Of a DNA stretch of 23,871 bases, positions 8,840 through 18,359 are shown piece after piece. A program made the translations under genes and the position numbers. The DNA is from a virus. Location: positions 1 through 23,871 of the IMG/VR virus record IMGVR_UViG_3300042525_000166, one strand, 5' to 3'. Every line of letters begins with the position of its first letter. Position 1 is the first letter of the stretch. Under the pieces are notes generated by a model. It was given only the letters and a program-made list of their open reading frames with translations. It ran no database searches and was not told where the DNA came from.

Positions 8840-9238
8840 ATGCTCAAATCAGTTAAGGTTGTGAAATCTTCTGTTGAGGATGTTCAAAAGTACCTAGGCA
8901 CAGTCATTTGGGGACAAGGCAGAAGTCCAAAAACTGGAACATTTGGACACAAGGCAACAGTGGATGTTGGGTACACTGCTCCGTACGCAATCTACGTCCA
9001 CGAAGACTTGACTGTGTTTCACCCAAACGGAATTGCCAAGTTCCTTGAAACTCCTGCTAATCAAATGGCTCCAGACCTGAAAAAACAGGTTGCGGCTCAT
9101 CTGGCAGCAGGAATTGGAATTGAACAAGCTCTTGTTCGTGCAGGAAGATCTTTAGTTAGGGTTTCTCAAGAACTCTGTCCAGTCTTCACAGGATACCTCA
9201 GAGACAGTGCATTCGTTAGGGTTAGGAGTGATCCATGA
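8840..9238 (+). CDS. Neck/tail-completion protein (HK97 gp10-like)
   Basis: This 132-residue protein resembles the HK97_gp10 / minor-tail group. VDVGYTAPYAIYVHEDL (about 35-51) is the family hallmark, a Tyr-rich strand ending in VHE, followed by a FLETPANQM segment (63-71) and the helix APDLKKQVAAHLAAGIGIEQALVRAG. The C-terminus (CPVFTGYLRDSAFV) is also typical. These proteins act at the head-tail interface or in tail completion. The stop overlaps the start of the holin gene (ATGA), so translation runs directly from a neck gene into the lysis-like cassette. Confidence 0.7.
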   Translation: MLKSVKVVKSSVEDVQKYLGTVIWGQGRSPKTGTFGHKATVDVGYTAPYAIYVHEDLTVFHPNGIAKFLETPANQMAPDLKKQVAAHLAAGIGIEQALVRAGRSLVRVSQELCPVFTGYLRDSAFVRVRSDP

Positions 9239-9642
9239 TCGGTGATATGTTAATGTCTAAACCAGACACAGTTTCGTACTGGCTGTTTCAAGTTGCCAGT
9301 TCTGTCCCATTCCTGGGAACGTTGCTGATCTTGATGCTGGCGGACGTTGTCATTGGGATCATCGTAGCCTGTGCCCAACAAACCCTGTCAAGCTCTGTCA
9401 GCTTTCGTGGTATCGGAAAGAAGGTGGTAACGCTAATTGTGGTGGGGGTGTGCCACACGATCGGCAGAGAGTCACAAATGCCGTTGGCTCAACTTGCTGC
9501 TGGAGCCTACTGCGTCACAGAGATACTGTCCATCATCGAAAACTCTGCGAAGCTGGGAGTTCCATTTCCACAAGCAGTGATCGATGTTCTTCCAAAAGTG
9601 TTCCAAGGAAAAAACGCTCTTCCTCCAAGAACCGGAACCTGA
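9235..9642 (+). CDS. Holin (phage_holin_4 / TcdE-like)
   Basis: This 135-residue membrane protein should open holes in the cytoplasmic membrane at the end of infection and release or activate the lysis enzymes. Three hydrophobic stretches are visible at about 25-47, 63-77 and 84-101. The family pattern is clear: ADVVIG (36-41) in the first span, a Ser-rich loop (52-54) followed by FRGIGKK (57-63), and SIIENSAKLGVPFPQ (99-113) after the last span. The C-terminus (GKNALPPRTGT) is short and basic, as in other holins. It overlaps the upstream neck gene by 4 nt. Finding it between neck and tail genes, rather than at the end of the late operon, is unusual. Confidence 0.8.
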   Translation: MIGDMLMSKPDTVSYWLFQVASSVPFLGTLLILMLADVVIGIIVACAQQTLSSSVSFRGIGKKVVTLIVVGVCHTIGRESQMPLAQLAAGAYCVTEILSIIENSAKLGVPFPQAVIDVLPKVFQGKNALPPRTGT

Positions 9643-9643
9643 C

Positions 9644-10066
9644 ATGAACCTGAACCAGTGTTGTGAGTCTGTCGCAGAGGGGATCGAAAACCGAGGGGAA
9701 GGTTTCAAGTTCATTGAGATTCTACCGATCATCACTGGTCTTGTTCCCCTGCTCTTCAAACTGTTCGAATCCTGTGGGAAGAAAAAGGAAGACCCGGAGC
9801 CAACCCCTGTTCAACTTTCCAAGTACGTAAACGAACGGTACGATCAGGAAACGGGGGAATACGATCACGTCCTGTTCGCCAGTGTGATGAACAAGGCCAA
9901 AAGACAAGCCCGCAAGGAACGGAAGAAGCTGTCCCGCAAACAACTTCGAATAGTGGCAAAGGAAACCCTGGACCAAGCCCGAACTATGTCTGCCCTGTCA
10001 CTCAGTGCCGTGTGTGCAGAAGCCTCCACAGTTCAAGTTTCCCAAGACGACCTCTTTGTTGAATGA
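9644..10066 (+). CDS. Small single-span membrane protein of the lysis-like cassette
   Basis: This 140-residue protein belongs to no family I recognise. One hydrophobic segment (about 24-43, IEILPIITGLVPLLFKLF) follows a short polar N-terminus with CC at 6-7. The rest is polar: a Pro-rich hinge (KKKEDPEPTP), then a strongly basic helix with KAKRQARKERKKLSRKQLR, then a weakly hydrophobic, Cys-containing end. Two N-terminal Cys and one just after the span could be membrane-proximal. The start is ATG 9644, directly after the holin; the upstream in-frame codon at 9584 lies inside the holin. Position suggests an antiholin, a second holin or an accessory factor. There is no direct evidence for any of these. 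Confidence 0.5.
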   Translation: MNLNQCCESVAEGIENRGEGFKFIEILPIITGLVPLLFKLFESCGKKKEDPEPTPVQLSKYVNERYDQETGEYDHVLFASVMNKAKRQARKERKKLSRKQLRIVAKETLDQARTMSALSLSAVCAEASTVQVSQDDLFVE

Positions 10067-10077
10067 AAGGATGTTCC

Positions 10078-10920
10078 ATGAGTCGCAGCATGGCCGTTCT
10101 TCTGTTTTTGGTTTTCGGACCGGGACAGTTGGTTGCTCAAGAGATCAAGTTTCCTACTGTGGTGGTTCCCCCTGTAGTGGAGCCACAGCCTCCCAAACCG
10201 GACCTTTCTCCTCAGAAAGTTCCACGGATTGACCCAGGAGAGTTCTATGTTGTCGAGTCTGACAAACAGTTCTTTCTTCTTGCGAGTCCGGAAAAGTTTG
10301 CTTCGGTCACCTACGAAACGGGACCGTTGCGTTTACGAGGCTTGTTCTCTGGTGGATCGGGTAAGGTTGAAACTCGCAACTATTCCTCGTCGCATATCGC
10401 GATCGTGGATGCGAAGTTTGGTGTGTCTGGAAGGGCTGAGCTGATTGCAATTCCCGCAGGACTTACTGAAGAGAAAGAAATCATCAGGACTTGGGTGGAA
10501 ATTGGAACCAGTCCCCGTCCTCCTCCCGATGATGAAAAGGAAGAGGTTTCCCCCGACGTTACTCCTCCGGCACCAATTGATCCTTCTCAACTCCGGGTGA
10601 TCATGGTGTACGAATCAGGCAAGGCGTACGACAAGGAAACCACCAACATTCTGTTTTCCACAAAGATTGTGGAGTACCTCAACGCTAAGTGCGTCAAGGA
10701 TGCTGAGGGTCGTCCCAGTTGGCGAAAATGGCCGAAGGGGACTTCCGTCACAGACTCCGAGCCAGAGCCTCTGCGATCTTTGTGGAACCAGTACCTTCCT
10801 CGTATGGGGGCACTTCCCCAGATTGTGATCAGTGCTGGCACCACGGCTGAAATCTATCCCCTTCCGGCAACCGAAGAAGCCACGATGGCCTTGTTGAAGA
10901 AGATTGGGGGTGATCTGTGA
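10078..10920 (+). CDS. Exported protein with thioredoxin-like C-terminal domain
   Basis: The 280-residue product starts with a clear signal peptide (hydrophobic core MAVLLFLVFG, probable cleavage after QLVA, about residue 20). A Pro-rich linker (25-50) is followed by a small beta domain (about 52-145), a second Pro/Glu-rich linker (147-170) and a C-terminal domain from LRVIMVYES to LLKKIGGDL. The last domain has the strand-helix-strand layout of a degenerate thioredoxin fold: ILFSTKIVEYL, the PQIVIS strand with a Pro in the cis-Pro position, then a helix. There is no CxxC, so it is unlikely to be a reductase by itself. ATG 10078, with AAAGGA upstream, is preferred over ATG 10063. Similar domains are, to my recollection, frequent in planctomycete proteins. 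Confidence 0.6.
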   Translation: MSRSMAVLLFLVFGPGQLVAQEIKFPTVVVPPVVEPQPPKPDLSPQKVPRIDPGEFYVVESDKQFFLLASPEKFASVTYETGPLRLRGLFSGGSGKVETRNYSSSHIAIVDAKFGVSGRAELIAIPAGLTEEKEIIRTWVEIGTSPRPPPDDEKEEVSPDVTPPAPIDPSQLRVIMVYESGKAYDKETTNILFSTKIVEYLNAKCVKDAEGRPSWRKWPKGTSVTDSEPEPLRSLWNQYLPRMGALPQIVISAGTTAEIYPLPATEEATMALLKKIGGDL

Positions 10921-11693
10921 TCTACGCTGGCGAAAATGTGATTGACGATAGCACTCCAGCGGATGTCTATCAAACTCCAGAAGGTCTTACTTCTGGGCTG
11001 ATGCCAGAGTTCCGTGGGGTTGGCAAAATGCCTTCCTCAGCTCCTTTTCCCAAAGAGCTTCTTATTCCTCGCAACGAGTGGGAAGCCCGTATAAAGGAAA
11101 TGGAAGAAAGGAAGTCTAGGGTTTCTGACTTGTCACGTCAGGCCGGTCAGATCTGCAAGAACCAAGGACAGACGAACTACTGCTGGATCAATTGTGTGGT
11201 GTACGCTTTGGAAACTCAGCGTGTGATCCAGAACCAAGGACTGGTTTCGTTGTCACCGGCCTCTGGTGGGGCCATCATCAAGAACTTCCAGAATGTTGGA
11301 GGTTGGCCTGATGAAGCCCTTGAGTTCATTTCCACTGTGGGGGTTGTTCCAACTTCCATGTGGCCTGACAACTCGATCAACCGGGCCTTCAAGACAGTGA
11401 TGAGTGATGCGGTCCGCAAGAAATACCGCGTGCCGCTCTGGTGGGAGCTCCCCAAGCTAAACCTTGAGTACCTCATGAGTGCCCTCCTACACCGCATCCC
11501 CGTGGCTGTAGGATACCTCTGGTGGGGTCACGCTGTATGTGGTATTGACCCGGTATGGACAAACGGTCAGCCCGGTGTACGCATCCGCAACTCTTGGGGA
11601 ATGGACTGGGGATTCGAAGGCTATTCAGTTCTGCAAGGGCAACGAGCTCTTCCTGATTGTGCCGTTTCTGTTGGACAAGCGGTTGCGTCATGA
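10917..11693 (+). CDS. Papain-family (C1A-like) cysteine protease
   Basis: This 258-residue protein carries a complete papain-type active site. It has Q83 in KNQGQTNYCW (oxyanion-hole Gln) and C89 six residues later, exactly the papain Gln19-Cys25 spacing. The catalytic His is H205 in WWGHAVCGID, and the Asn is N225 in IRNSWGMDWGFEGY. The usual GSCW is replaced by NYCW. Residues 1-75 form a short N-terminal extension, with PRNEWEARIKEMEERKSRV as a possible propeptide-like helix. No signal peptide is present, so export would need the holin or virion incorporation. It starts by overlapping the preceding stop and ends overlapping the thioredoxin gene. The most likely role is proteolytic attack on the host envelope; a virion role is the alternative. 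Confidence 0.85.
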   Translation: MIYAGENVIDDSTPADVYQTPEGLTSGLMPEFRGVGKMPSSAPFPKELLIPRNEWEARIKEMEERKSRVSDLSRQAGQICKNQGQTNYCWINCVVYALETQRVIQNQGLVSLSPASGGAIIKNFQNVGGWPDEALEFISTVGVVPTSMWPDNSINRAFKTVMSDAVRKKYRVPLWWELPKLNLEYLMSALLHRIPVAVGYLWWGHAVCGIDPVWTNGQPGVRIRNSWGMDWGFEGYSVLQGQRALPDCAVSVGQAVAS

Positions 11694-12319
11694 ACACGAT
11701 GCTTTCTGTGTTGATCCTTTGTGCTGCTGTTCCTACGACAACGTACACGTTTCGTGAACAGACGGTGCAGACCACAATCAAAGTTCAACGGCAGCCTGTT
11801 CGCAAGGTGTTGATTTTTTCACACAAGAACTGTTCTGCCTGTCCCAAGTTTCAGATGAATGGGTACACCTCACCTGAACTCATCGAACTCACCAAGAAAA
11901 AGTGGCGGGTTGGGCACAACGGTGATGTTCACATTCAAGTCATTCGCACCGAGTTGGATTATGCCACCGCTGCGAAGTACAATGTGGACATGACTCCAAC
12001 CTACATCCTTGTTGAAGATGGAAAGGTGCTTTCAAGGAAGGTTGGACGGCTGAGTTCCAGACAGATCACTGACCTATACTTCTTGAAAGTAGCGGCTGCT
12101 CCATTCAAGGCTGCTGCCAAGGTCACCGCTTCTGTTTTTAACTTCGCTGTACCCAGACCCAGTCACAGACGGTACACTTGGCCCGGAGGAACTGAAGCCA
12201 GCCTTCGAGCCCATCTTGAACAAACTCACGGAATCAGAGTTCGTGGAATGTCTTTTCAACAGCTTCGTGCAATCCACGATGCTGATCACAACAACGGGTT
12301 TGTTCCAGGAAGGGAATGA
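11690..12319 (+). CDS. Exported thioredoxin-like protein with CSAC active site
   Basis: This 209-residue protein has an N-terminal signal peptide (hydrophobic MLSVLILCAAV, about residues 4-14) and a thioredoxin domain at about 38-135. The first strand KVLIFSHKNC leads to C48-S-A-C51, and TPTYILVEDGKVL (102-114) supplies the cis-Pro strand, P103. A C-terminal module (160-201) contains a WPGGTEASLRAHLEQTHG stretch and then FQQLRAIHDADHNN, with His at 175, 180, 196 and 200. I recall similar endings in planctomycete proteins, perhaps metal-binding. A secreted disulfide reductase would act on cystine bonds outside the cytoplasm. ATG 11690 overlaps the protease stop and is preferred over an in-frame codon at 11657. 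Confidence 0.75.
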   Translation: MNTMLSVLILCAAVPTTTYTFREQTVQTTIKVQRQPVRKVLIFSHKNCSACPKFQMNGYTSPELIELTKKKWRVGHNGDVHIQVIRTELDYATAAKYNVDMTPTYILVEDGKVLSRKVGRLSSRQITDLYFLKVAAAPFKAAAKVTASVFNFAVPRPSHRRYTWPGGTEASLRAHLEQTHGIRVRGMSFQQLRAIHDADHNNGFVPGRE

Positions 12320-12729
12320 CTATGGCTTTGAGACTTGGAACCACAGTTCGCAACAATGCTTGTAACGCGGTTGTGGACAGCATTGATGCAGGATCTGGAG
12401 CAGGGACCATCAAGGTCTATACCGGAGCTCAGCCGAGTGCGGTCAGCGACAACCCCTCTGGGACACTGCTGGGGACGCTTACGTTTAGCGACCCGGCTTT
12501 CGGTAACTCAGCTACGGGGGTGGCAACCGCTTCCTCCATCACGTCTGACACTTCCGCAGATGCCAGTGGAACAGCCGGCCACGCTTGCATCTTCGACAGT
12601 GACAACAACCCACTTATGGACATGACTTGTGGACAAGGCTCAGGCGACCTGAACTTTGACAACAACGTCATCGTCGCTGGTGGAACCATTGCCATTTCTT
12701 CCATGACCGTTACCGTTCCTGTGAGCTGA
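12316..12729 (+). CDS. Small virion-type protein (common phage family)
   Basis: This protein of 135-137 residues resembles a widespread phage family with the opening MALRLGTTVRNNACNAVVDS, then AGTIKVYTGAQP, LLGTLTFSDPAFG and ATASSITSDTSADASGTA. It is beta-rich, lacks a signal peptide and ends SSMTVTVPVS. Proteins of this type are encoded among tail and neck genes and are taken to be virion-associated; their precise role is not known to me. It overlaps the thioredoxin stop (ATGA). ATG 12322, two codons in, fits the family's MALR start better and also has GGAAGGGAA upstream; either start is possible. It marks the return from the lysis-like cassette to structural genes. Confidence 0.6.
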   Translation: MTMALRLGTTVRNNACNAVVDSIDAGSGAGTIKVYTGAQPSAVSDNPSGTLLGTLTFSDPAFGNSATGVATASSITSDTSADASGTAGHACIFDSDNNPLMDMTCGQGSGDLNFDNNVIVAGGTIAISSMTVTVPVS

Positions 12730-14008: not shown

Positions 14009-14362
14009 ATGAATCTTGCTTACCAATACAGGGCCAAGATCACCAACGTGGTGGATGGCGACACCCTAGACCTGGAGATCGATCTTGGGTTTAGAGCGCG
14101 ACTCGAGATAAGATGCCGGGTCTGGGGTGTCAACTGTCCAGAAGTCAAAGGTGATTCCAAAGTCAAAGGAATGGCTGCCACACACTTCACAAGTGAACTA
14201 ATCCGTGGTTTCACTTCTGTGATGGTAAGAACCCACAAGGATGCAGACTCCTTCGGACGGTATGTGGCAGAAATCATTGGAACACGACAAGACGGAACTG
14301 TACTGAACCTTGGTGACGAGTTGATCAAAAACGGTCATGCTATTGAATTCATGAGGAAGTAA
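14009..14362 (+). CDS. Staphylococcal-nuclease-like (SNase/TNase) enzyme
   Basis: This 117-residue protein has a complete SNase-type core. It reads VVDGDTLDLEI (14-24), RCRVWGVNCPE (35-45) and the helix SFGRYVAEI (81-89). Arg37, Glu45 (eight residues apart, as in Arg35-Glu43 of staphylococcal nuclease) and Arg84 correspond to the catalytic trio. The Ca2+-ligand Asp just before the PE motif is Asn42 here, so metal dependence may differ. No signal peptide is seen, so it would act in the infected cell or in the virion. It lies among tail genes, with ribosome-binding GGAGGC upstream and two bases before the fibre gene. It may degrade host or competing phage DNA. Confidence 0.85.
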   Translation: MNLAYQYRAKITNVVDGDTLDLEIDLGFRARLEIRCRVWGVNCPEVKGDSKVKGMAATHFTSELIRGFTSVMVRTHKDADSFGRYVAEIIGTRQDGTVLNLGDELIKNGHAIEFMRK

Positions 14363-15677: not shown

Positions 15678-17906
15678 ATGTACGGATATGTTGCATACGC
15701 TGAGCTTCCGTACTCCACCATCTGGGTGTTCACTGCTTCGTCGACTCTCAATGTCGGTGCAGCAACGATCGCTTGTAGTGTCCAGCATGTGAGACCGGTG
15801 TACACTGGAAGTTCTGCTGTCACCACCGGAGCAGCAACTCTGTCCGGTTCTGCCCAGCATGTTCGTCCTACGTACACCGGGTCTTCTGCTGTCACAATTG
15901 GAGCAGTCACTCTTGCGAGCAGTGTTCAACATACGACGCCAGTCTACACAGGAACAGCCAACCTTTCTACAGGAGCATTCAGCCTTTCAGGTTCTGTTGC
16001 ACACACAACCCCGGTCTATTCTGGAACAAGTGTGTTGTCCATTGGAGCGGCCACCTTGGCTTCCAGTGCAACTCATGTTCGTCCAGTCTACACTGGTTCC
16101 TCCAGCTTGACTGCTCCGGCCACAACATTGACGGGTTCGTGTACTCACAGCCCTCCCAGCTACACCGGAACCTCGACTCTGGTGGTCGGAGCAGTCACTG
16201 GATCAGGTTCAGCAACTCACACTCGTCCAGTCTACACAGCTTCCAGTTCTGTGTCTATTGGAGCGGTCACCTGTTCTGCTTCGGCAAGCCATACTCGCCC
16301 GACCTACACTGGGTCCAGTTCTGTTCAGACCGGAGTTACTGTCATTTCAGCCTATGCTGAATTTGATGCTCCAGTCTACACAGCTTCTTCTGCTGTGACT
16401 ATGGCTGCGGTGACAGTGGCAGCTTCTGCTTCCCACACCACTCCAGTCTACACAGCATCAGCAGACCTAACTTCACCGAAAGCCACAATTTCAACAACTG
16501 TAGTCCACACGACACCAACATACACAGCTTCTTCATCCGTGACGGTTGGTTCAACTTCTTTGTCTTCAAGTGTGGCTTTCACAGCCCCAATCTACTCTGG
16601 TACGAGTGAATTGGCTGTTGCACCGACAACCTTGACCGGAACTGCTTCTCATGCGGCAGCAGTTTATCTAGCTTCTGCAACATTGTCTGTCCCACAGATC
16701 ACCTATTCAGCATCAGGAACTCATGTTCGTCCAACATACACAGCTTCTTCTGTTCTACTAAGTGGGTCTGTGATTCTGTCTGGCAATGCTTCACACACTG
16801 GACCGATCTACACAGGAACGGGAGTGCTTACGGCCGGGGTAACTGCGCTGACTGGCTCTTGTTCGTTTGTACGACCAGTCTATACAGCGACCGGAACACT
16901 CCAATGCGAAGCAGTAACTCTTCAAGCCTCAGCCACGTTCACCAGTCCTATCTACTCTGCGACCGGATCACTGTCAACTGGAGTAATCACTGTTCAAGGA
17001 ACAGCAGTATTCACGAAGCCTGTTTATCTGGCTTCTAGTTCCTTAACGGTCGGGGGAACAGGTATTTCTGGTAATGCCACTTTCTCTTCAGGGAGCTTTA
17101 CAGCGGAAAGCAGTTTGACAGTTCCAGAAGCGGTACTTTCAGCCATCGGTTCCCATGCTGTTCCGGTGTACACTGCCGAGGCGTTTATTGTTGCCCCAAA
17201 AACGACACTACAAGGGGCAACAAATAGCACCCCGCCAGTTTATACGGGTTTGGCGGTTCTGATTGCGCCTAGGGCCACCGGCAGCGTCTCAGCTACTTTC
17301 CAGCCACCGGTGCAAACTGCAAGCGGTAACCTGTCGGCTCCGGCTACGAGTTTGGTGGCCTATGCTCTTCAGACTTCCGATGCCACTTACCTAGCGTCTT
17401 GTCATCTGACCGTTGGTTCTGCACACCTTTCGGGGTATGCTGCTCGAGTAGAAGTAATTTATCGGCTGGATCATTCCCCAGCAGATATCATTCGTCACTG
17501 GATCGTTTCTTCGGTGTACGGGACTTTGCCTAGCGATTCTTCTGCTTCTCCGGTTTCTGTGAACTACATGCCGGACGAGCCTGACAATTGTTCTTGTACC
17601 TTTGACACCAAGGGATTCCCAGAAGGTCGTGAGTCTGTTGAAGGAGGTGTACAACAACATTACGGAGTTCAAGTCCAAGTACGATCTGATGACTATCCAG
17701 ACGGGTGGACAAGAATTCAGCAGTTCAAGACCAAGTTGACAGAAGAAGTCAATAGGTCTAGAGTGTCAATTGGATCCAGTTTGTATGAAATTCAGGCAGT
17801 AAGTTCTCTTGGATCTCCACGGTTTTCTGGTAAGGAAGCTGGTACAAAGAGATTCAGGTTTGCAGCAGATTTCAAAACTGCGTTGATCCAGCTAATCCAA
17901 ACATAA
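15678..17906 (+). CDS. 24-residue-repeat fibre fused to a tail-terminator-like domain
   Basis: This 742-residue protein has a short N-terminus (1-18), then 24 tandem units averaging 24 residues (about 19-595; only one unit is 25 long), and a C-terminal domain of about 147 residues. Typical units are TGSSAVTTGAATLSGSAQHV followed by RPTY, then TGSSAVTIGAVTLASSVQHT followed by TPVY. The regular Tyr-ended, Ser/Thr/Val-rich period suggests a beta-solenoid or beta-triple fibre. The C-terminal domain starts HSPADIIRHW and contains GVQVQVRSD and SLYEIQAVSS. It is a paralogue of the next gene product, matching at HSPADI, SVxY, GIQLRVRA and RDRFVANF. The stand-alone family looks like tail-terminator/minor-capsid proteins, so the fusion probably anchors a fibre to the tail neck. 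Confidence 0.75.
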   Translation: MYGYVAYAELPYSTIWVFTASSTLNVGAATIACSVQHVRPVYTGSSAVTTGAATLSGSAQHVRPTYTGSSAVTIGAVTLASSVQHTTPVYTGTANLSTGAFSLSGSVAHTTPVYSGTSVLSIGAATLASSATHVRPVYTGSSSLTAPATTLTGSCTHSPPSYTGTSTLVVGAVTGSGSATHTRPVYTASSSVSIGAVTCSASASHTRPTYTGSSSVQTGVTVISAYAEFDAPVYTASSAVTMAAVTVAASASHTTPVYTASADLTSPKATISTTVVHTTPTYTASSSVTVGSTSLSSSVAFTAPIYSGTSELAVAPTTLTGTASHAAAVYLASATLSVPQITYSASGTHVRPTYTASSVLLSGSVILSGNASHTGPIYTGTGVLTAGVTALTGSCSFVRPVYTATGTLQCEAVTLQASATFTSPIYSATGSLSTGVITVQGTAVFTKPVYLASSSLTVGGTGISGNATFSSGSFTAESSLTVPEAVLSAIGSHAVPVYTAEAFIVAPKTTLQGATNSTPPVYTGLAVLIAPRATGSVSATFQPPVQTASGNLSAPATSLVAYALQTSDATYLASCHLTVGSAHLSGYAARVEVIYRLDHSPADIIRHWIVSSVYGTLPSDSSASPVSVNYMPDEPDNCSCTFDTKGFPEGRESVEGGVQQHYGVQVQVRSDDYPDGWTRIQQFKTKLTEEVNRSRVSIGSSLYEIQAVSSLGSPRFSGKEAGTKRFRFAADFKTALIQLIQT
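15732..17462 (+). repeat. Tandem array of about 24 units of 72 bp (24 codons)
   Basis: The array fills three quarters of the fusion gene. Unit borders are marked by the codons for PVY, PTY or PIY followed by TGSS, TASS or TGTS. Unit 23 has one extra codon. Similarity between units is clear in protein but patchy in DNA, so the array is old or under drift rather than freshly expanded; stretches such as CCAGTCTACACAGC recur in neighbouring units. The units are not CRISPR-like, since they are translated and lack spacers. Confidence 0.9.
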
Positions 17907-17915
17907 AGAACAATC

Positions 17916-18359
17916 ATGGCTGAACTGACACACTCTCCAGCAGACATCGTAAGACATGCTCTGATTGCTCTTGGACAAGGCAGTCTTCCGCGGAATTACG
18001 TAGATTGGCCGATCTCGGTAGGATACGAGTTGGACTCTCCTGATTCTTGTGTTACGTTGTTTGATACAACTGGAACTCCAGATGGGAGGTCACAGATCGA
18101 TGGAGAAGTTCTACAGCATCCTGGAATCCAGTTGAGGGTGCGAGCTTCTGGTCATCAGACTGGTTGGAGCAAAATCAACTCCCTGACTGTGGCCTTGGAC
18201 GCAATCAACAACTATCGAGTAACGATTGACTCGTCAACATACACCATCCAAGTTATCTCAAGGAGAAGCACGGTTGAGTCCATCGGGAAAGAAGATTCGG
18301 TAACTAAGCGTGACCGATTCGTTGCAAATTTCACAGTCTCAATAGATCAGGAAGGATAG
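17916..18359 (+). CDS. Tail terminator / minor tail protein
   Basis: This 147-residue protein lies directly upstream of the tail-tube gene, as tail terminators often do. It contains HSPADIVRHALIALGQG, DSPDSCVTLFDTTGTPDG, then GIQLRVRASGHQTGW (the typical 'GVQVRVR' segment of this family) and YTIQVISRRS. Terminators cap the finished tube at the end that joins the head. It is a clear paralogue of the C-terminal 147 residues of the preceding fusion protein and has almost the same length, indicating duplication followed by fusion in one copy. It begins nine bases after that gene and ends one base before the tail-tube start. Its Shine-Dalgarno is weak (AAAGAAC), suggesting reinitiation from upstream. 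Confidence 0.7.
   Translation: MAELTHSPADIVRHALIALGQGSLPRNYVDWPISVGYELDSPDSCVTLFDTTGTPDGRSQIDGEVLQHPGIQLRVRASGHQTGWSKINSLTVALDAINNYRVTIDSSTYTIQVISRRSTVESIGKEDSVTKRDRFVANFTVSIDQEG

Follow-up and report, generated by a model that had tools for sequence, protein, structure and literature searches.

Holin-endolysin cassettes, such as S-R-Rz/Rz1 of phage lambda and holin-endolysin-Rz-Rz1 of Mannheimia phage 587AP2, pack the holin gene tightly with its downstream genes in a late operon, often near the terminase genes, and combine an enzyme that lacks an export signal with exported accessory proteins. In the signal-arrest-release (SAR) endolysins with disulfide control, such as phage P1 Lyz, the enzyme is a muramidase, and the redox state of its catalytic Cys is controlled in the periplasm. 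Here we describe a five-gene cassette at positions 9235-12319 of a 23,871-base fragment of an uncultured tailed phage, less than a whole genome (IMG/VR record IMGVR_UViG_3300042525_000166, positions 1-23,871; this whole stretch is called the window below). The cassette shares the layout of holin-endolysin cassettes and differs from them in its enzyme, which is a papain-type (C1A) cysteine protease and not a peptidoglycan hydrolase, and in its accessory proteins, which are thioredoxin-fold proteins and not recognised spanins (no search aimed at spanins was made).

A first-pass annotation of the window had proposed a new lysis or envelope-breaching module that acts by disulfide reduction plus proteolysis. 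We tentatively favour a late cassette whose holin-linked protease acts on the envelope, probably to lyse the cell, a reading that stands close to, though not above, an even balance of probability. Below we elaborate on the proteins of the cassette, its recurrence in other phages, and a related operon on bacterial chromosomes that supplies the main evidence on the other side.

The cassette and its holin

All five genes lie consecutively on the plus strand. The first encodes a holin of the Phage_holin_4_1 family (9235-9642), matching PF05105 (E 8.3e-25, 87.6 bits versus a curated cut-off of 22.2) and the holin family phrog_199 (E 2.3e-15), which upholds the type assigned in the annotation. It is followed by smTM, a small protein with one transmembrane (TM) segment (9644-10066), by the exported protein SPtrx (10063-10920), by the papain-type protease (10917-11693) and by an exported thioredoxin (11690-12319). 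The smTM open reading frame (ORF) could open at 9584; the ATG at 9644 fits a 1-nt gap after the holin stop. The other junctions overlap, by ATGA between smTM and SPtrx, GTGA between SPtrx and the protease, and ATGA between the protease and the thioredoxin, and the five genes are translationally coupled. ORFs and junctions thus match the earlier description, as does the lack of any peptidoglycan hydrolase match among the main ORFs of the window.

The holin gene adjoins the protease cassette, as in a canonical holin-endolysin cassette. PF05105 was found in 2 of the 54 phage records of this group that were searched, the window and L147 (E 1e-12), in both cases near the protease. Holins near the protease belong to more than one family across phages: a LydA-type holin (phrog_6384, E 7e-6) is encoded five genes upstream of the protease in L138, and a further family, phrog_2359 (E 3e-9), occurs among the small TM proteins neighbouring proteases. 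In one phage contig the small membrane protein beside the protease (L220:7265-7798) matches Lipid_desat (PF10520, likely this member).

The papain-type protease

The window protease matches PF00112 (E 3e-9, 37.6 bits versus a cut-off of 20.7) and carries the complete set of catalytic residues that the annotation had listed (Q83, C89, H205 and N225), together with the NSWG motif of C1A papain/cathepsin peptidases. Its AlphaFold model, built from an alignment of 38 homologues, has a mean predicted local distance difference test (pLDDT) score of 94. By this predicted fold the protein is of the C1A endopeptidase type, since the top Foldseek matches are cathepsins K, L and S (procathepsin K, E 1e-12). 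Across 163 papain loci the oxyanion Gln is kept in 157/161, Cys in 162/162, His in 160/162 and Asn in 154/162, which points to selection for activity. The reading of the protease as a pseudogene product was rejected on the same conservation.

A signal peptide and an inhibitory propeptide are common in eukaryotic C1A members and optional for family membership. The window copy differs in having neither a signal peptide nor a classical inhibitory propeptide: its N-terminus is not signal-like, and only ∼75 residues precede the catalytic domain. It also differs in its neighbours, which are exported thioredoxin-fold proteins. By hydrophobicity, a crude predictor of TM segments and export, a hydrophobic segment precedes the catalytic Cys in 12 of 137 viral proteases versus 28 of 42 from genomes, and some of the unanchored genome-derived proteases sit in prophage-like surroundings. 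In the window protease no hydrophobic stretch above threshold, such as a SAR-type segment would form, precedes the catalytic Cys. Because the viral protease mostly lacks a TM segment while its partners are exported, it would need another exit route, such as release through a holin.

The exported thioredoxin-fold partners

SPtrx consists of a signal peptide, an Ig-like domain, a Pro-rich linker and a C-terminal thioredoxin-like domain without CxxC. Its AlphaFold model (pLDDT 85) places an N-terminal Ig-like sandwich before the thioredoxin-like domain, and Foldseek returns the thioredoxins 6zmu, 6x0b and 1ep8 (probability 0.99, TMt ∼0.5). The degenerate thioredoxin fold proposed earlier thus agrees with the predicted model, at a weak E of only 0.025-0.05.

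The protein encoded at 11690-12319 contains the CxxC motif (CSAC, as annotated) and the cis-Pro (MTPTYI) of a thioredoxin, and a His-rich C-terminal domain (HLEQTHG...LHDADH). Its profile scores lie below the curated cut-offs (Thioredoxin_2, E 4e-5, 24.4 versus 27 bits; Thioredoxin, E 0.006, 17 versus 23.5 bits). The His-rich C-terminus (12180-12316) resembles a domain of the exported protein that follows the protease in L055 (16284-16901; HLIHTHG...LHGKMHG). In L138 the papain-type protease is directly followed by an exported trypsin-thioredoxin (CGPC) fusion (L138:8835-9782; Trypsin_2 1e-9, Thioredoxin 5e-10).

Recurrence of the cassette in other phages

Of two protease alignments, one yielded 60 viral relatives and the other 277, of which the best 80 were kept; they also yielded 15 genome loci, mostly from Gemmataceae and other Planctomycetes, and also from Mucilaginibacter and Flexithrix. 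A member of the SPtrx family lies within six genes of the protease in 116/163 loci: directly upstream (position -1) in 97 of them, and no more than three genes upstream in all but one. Among 99 distinct viral loci, exported or anchored N-termini are predicted for 44% of the genes at -2, 60% at -1 and 39% at +1, with a background of 7.2% for genes six or more positions away from the protease. Exported CxxC proteins occupy +1 in 23% of these loci versus 0.5% of the background (Fisher p 1e-31 for exported proteins at -1 and 1e-18 for CxxC proteins at +1, both inflated by shared ancestry). The gene linkage that the annotation had proposed to check by profile search is therefore conserved, and a chance association of neighbours was rejected on the enrichment. 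At -2, other papain loci likewise encode similar proteins with one TM segment and the layout of smTM, and the order of the window (small TM protein, exported protein, protease, exported thioredoxin) is repeated in L122 and in L123/L124.

This linkage bears on the possibility that the protease acts in the cytoplasm, in host takeover or capsid maturation, and that the exported genes are linked to it by chance or operon economy. Most phage copies indeed have no export signal, as such a role would have it, but their association with exported neighbours is far above background, their chromosomal relatives are mostly anchored, with an inferred periplasm-facing topology, and separate head proteases exist. 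We regard a cytoplasmic role as the least probable of the explanations considered here. Capsid maturation in particular was rejected, as head-maturation protease genes appear to be separate, with a DUF2213 gene in the window and a ClpP-like gene, recognised by sight, in G131.

A two-sequence alignment of the major capsid protein (MCP) recovered 47 IMG/VR loci (36-53% identity), of which 44 were new. At a shifted position in the head-tail interval, the relative G001 (64.75 kb, 52% MCP identity) encodes a C1-type protease together with a TM protein and two exported proteins, one of them thioredoxin-like, and several further relatives of the MCP family carry the protease. The structural genes differ among cassette-bearing phages, and the cassette often adjoins the TerL or portal gene (L119, L127, G131, G133). 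The module is found in unrelated phage backbones.

In the window, the head-tail gene upstream of the holin (8840-9238, plus strand; homologue at 31087-31494 of G001) overlaps the holin start, and the virion structural gene downstream (12316-12729, plus strand; phrog_3758, E 1.2e-27) overlaps the end of the thioredoxin gene and is coupled to the cassette while lying outside the module. As the overlaps run on into both flanking structural genes, the cassette belongs to a head-tail operon, embedded between head-tail genes and the tail. A virion-associated protease that cuts the envelope at entry, during genome injection, would suit this position between head and tail genes and the coupling to a virion structural gene. 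It would leave the signal peptides of the partners unexplained, since virion proteins can do without them; moreover, the cassette shifts relative to the head and tail genes, lies near TerL in other phages and is linked to holins. An entry role is accordingly improbable, if a shade less so than a cytoplasmic one.

The window further encodes a small terminase, a portal protein, the DUF2213 protein, the MCP-like capsid protein and tape-measure proteins. Its structural region includes a staphylococcal-nuclease-like endonuclease (14009-14362; phrog_452, E 2.5e-27), and two adjacent genes at 15678-18359 both match the tail terminator PF12691 (in the C-terminal part of a 742-aa protein and in the 147-aa protein that follows), which looks like a duplication. 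G001 and G006 (L009-L012, L061-L064) carry genes for an amino acid:DNA transferase (ADDT) and thymidylate synthase, suggesting hypermodified DNA. One phage that has the papain cassette, G017, encodes an exported protein with a CAP/SCP-type look by eye (L078:10693-11142).

Search for peptidoglycan hydrolases

Pfam scans of selected G001 and G006 proteins gave no peptidoglycan hydrolase among the matches listed (25 of 55 and 25 of 31 families), and a scan of selected G131 proteins gave none beyond the endolysins added as controls. Three control endolysins had been added to the G131 set; GH24 and GH19 were found, with one member each, and the third control was unmatched. The proteins for two of the three scans of relatives, including G131, were picked by eye, and the phage records may be incomplete. 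Profile searches of phage records were likewise empty for GH24 (0/40, control found), M15_4 (0/40), Amidase_2 (0/23) and GH19 (0/29, controls found). Endolysin motifs were also sought by regular expressions in 29 genomes; this search was discarded, having missed 3/3 known endolysins of control phages. The canonical endolysin that the annotation had named as possible counter-evidence was thus found in relatives neither by the scans of selected proteins nor by these four profile searches.

A related operon on Planctomycete chromosomes

The annotation had linked the window to Planctomycetes, and this link is borne out through chromosomal relatives. The protease is present in 34/95 Gemmataceae species, typically in an operon of SPtrx, a TM-anchored papain-type protease and an exported thioredoxin-like protein. 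This operon shares gene order and the protease and SPtrx families with the phage cassette, and differs in that the protease is mostly TM-anchored, the third protein lacks CxxC (in those inspected) and no holin is seen. The chromosomal operons (L261/L265, L263/L264, L271) lie outside visible prophages, beside housekeeping genes, and are syntenic between species. Given these operons and their spread in Gemmataceae, the core system has its place in Planctomycetes, whether because a phage cassette was domesticated by its hosts or because a host cassette was acquired, and stripped of its anchor, by phages. The 'new module' of the annotation is therefore new in part: its linkage is conserved in phages, while its holin-less version is a three-gene operon of Gemmataceae chromosomes. 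Other routes to a host gave no match: PF07595 (Planctomycete extracellular motif) was found in 0/36 phage records, and the MCP family was found as a prophage neither in 392 Planctomycetota genomes nor in a scan of genome contigs (searches made with no positive control), so that integration does not indicate a host.

Since the holin-less operon sits on Gemmataceae chromosomes beside ordinary host genes, the protease is not intrinsically lethal. The host form is not a simple lysis system, which keeps alive an explanation without lysis, namely that the protease and its thioredoxin-fold partners are a periplasmic protein-processing system that phages took from Planctomycete hosts and that, during infection, reshapes or removes surface proteins, for superinfection exclusion, receptor shaving or nutrient supply. 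Its common occurrence in non-phage, syntenic surroundings suits this explanation, as does the same head-tail slot in MCP relatives, which holds other exported hydrolases (Trypsin_2, Lipase_3, C92), as expected of accessory genes. In that slot, trypsin-like proteases occur in L013 and L030 (by motif also in L014, L031 and L034), Lipase_3 in L014, and a C92 permuted papain-like enzyme with a C39-like protein (by eye) in L019. However, most phage proteases lack the membrane anchor and lie in late operons beside holin-like genes, small TM genes are strongly linked to them at -2, and the scanned genomes yielded no alternative lysis enzyme. We consider such an accessory function rather unlikely, although it is the most serious competitor.

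Proposed mechanism

For the lysis reading, we infer holin-dependent release, a periplasmic substrate, lysis and a redox role as follows. The holin or, in relatives, a different small membrane protein would open the inner membrane and so release the cathepsin-like protease, which has no anchor, into the periplasm; the two exported thioredoxin-fold proteins would already be present there. The released protease would then cut envelope proteins, standing in for the endolysin of a holin-endolysin cassette. Its exported partners probably act as chaperones or activators of the protease, or present substrates to it. Where a CxxC thioredoxin is present, as in the window, it could maintain the catalytic Cys in its reduced form or break disulfides of envelope proteins. 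The idea of a redox-controlled catalytic Cys in the periplasm is shared with P1 Lyz; the window protease and most viral relatives differ in having no N-terminal SAR/TM segment, and the enzyme is not a muramidase.

Several observations weigh against a role in lysis. The foremost is the holin-less chromosomal operon, which is unexpected for a purely lethal function. Recognised holins occur in a minority of papain loci, and in some phages (G001) the protease is TM-anchored. In many relatives the +1 partner is a thioredoxin-like protein without CxxC, or another protein; the redox step is therefore weak and not general, and the disulfide reduction that the annotation had made part of the mechanism is restricted to members whose partner has CxxC. 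C1A proteases are not known to cut peptidoglycan, and since Gemmata and other Planctomycetes have peptidoglycan, the cassette alone leaves its breach unexplained. A divergent endolysin may also have been missed, as no record is certified complete.

A bolder version holds that phages of Planctomycetes, and possibly of some Bacteroidota, lyse without any peptidoglycan hydrolase, a holin-freed cathepsin-like protease and exported thioredoxins dismantling a disulfide-rich protein envelope, and that Gemmataceae retain a membrane-anchored form of this system for their own use. We consider this combined claim distinctly unlikely.

Significance

No relative of the window protease, of two other proteases used as queries or of the window thioredoxin was found in the 50,697 named phage genomes of INPHARED, and a literature search for lysis by Planctomycete phages or for phage papains found nothing relevant; the exit of phages from Planctomycete hosts therefore appears to be undescribed. 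The wall of planctomycetes is described as a sacculus of disulfide-bonded protein (PMC2754498), with little peptidoglycan, whose presence in low abundance has been shown in Gemmata and other Planctomycetes (PMC5814848). The protease cassette is a marker for recognising a large group of uncultured phages. With a protease in place of the endolysin, the concept of a lysis cassette would be broadened, and the question of what holds the Planctomycete envelope together would become directly testable. Phages with the cassette may breach host cells through cleavage of envelope proteins instead of the sugar-peptide wall.

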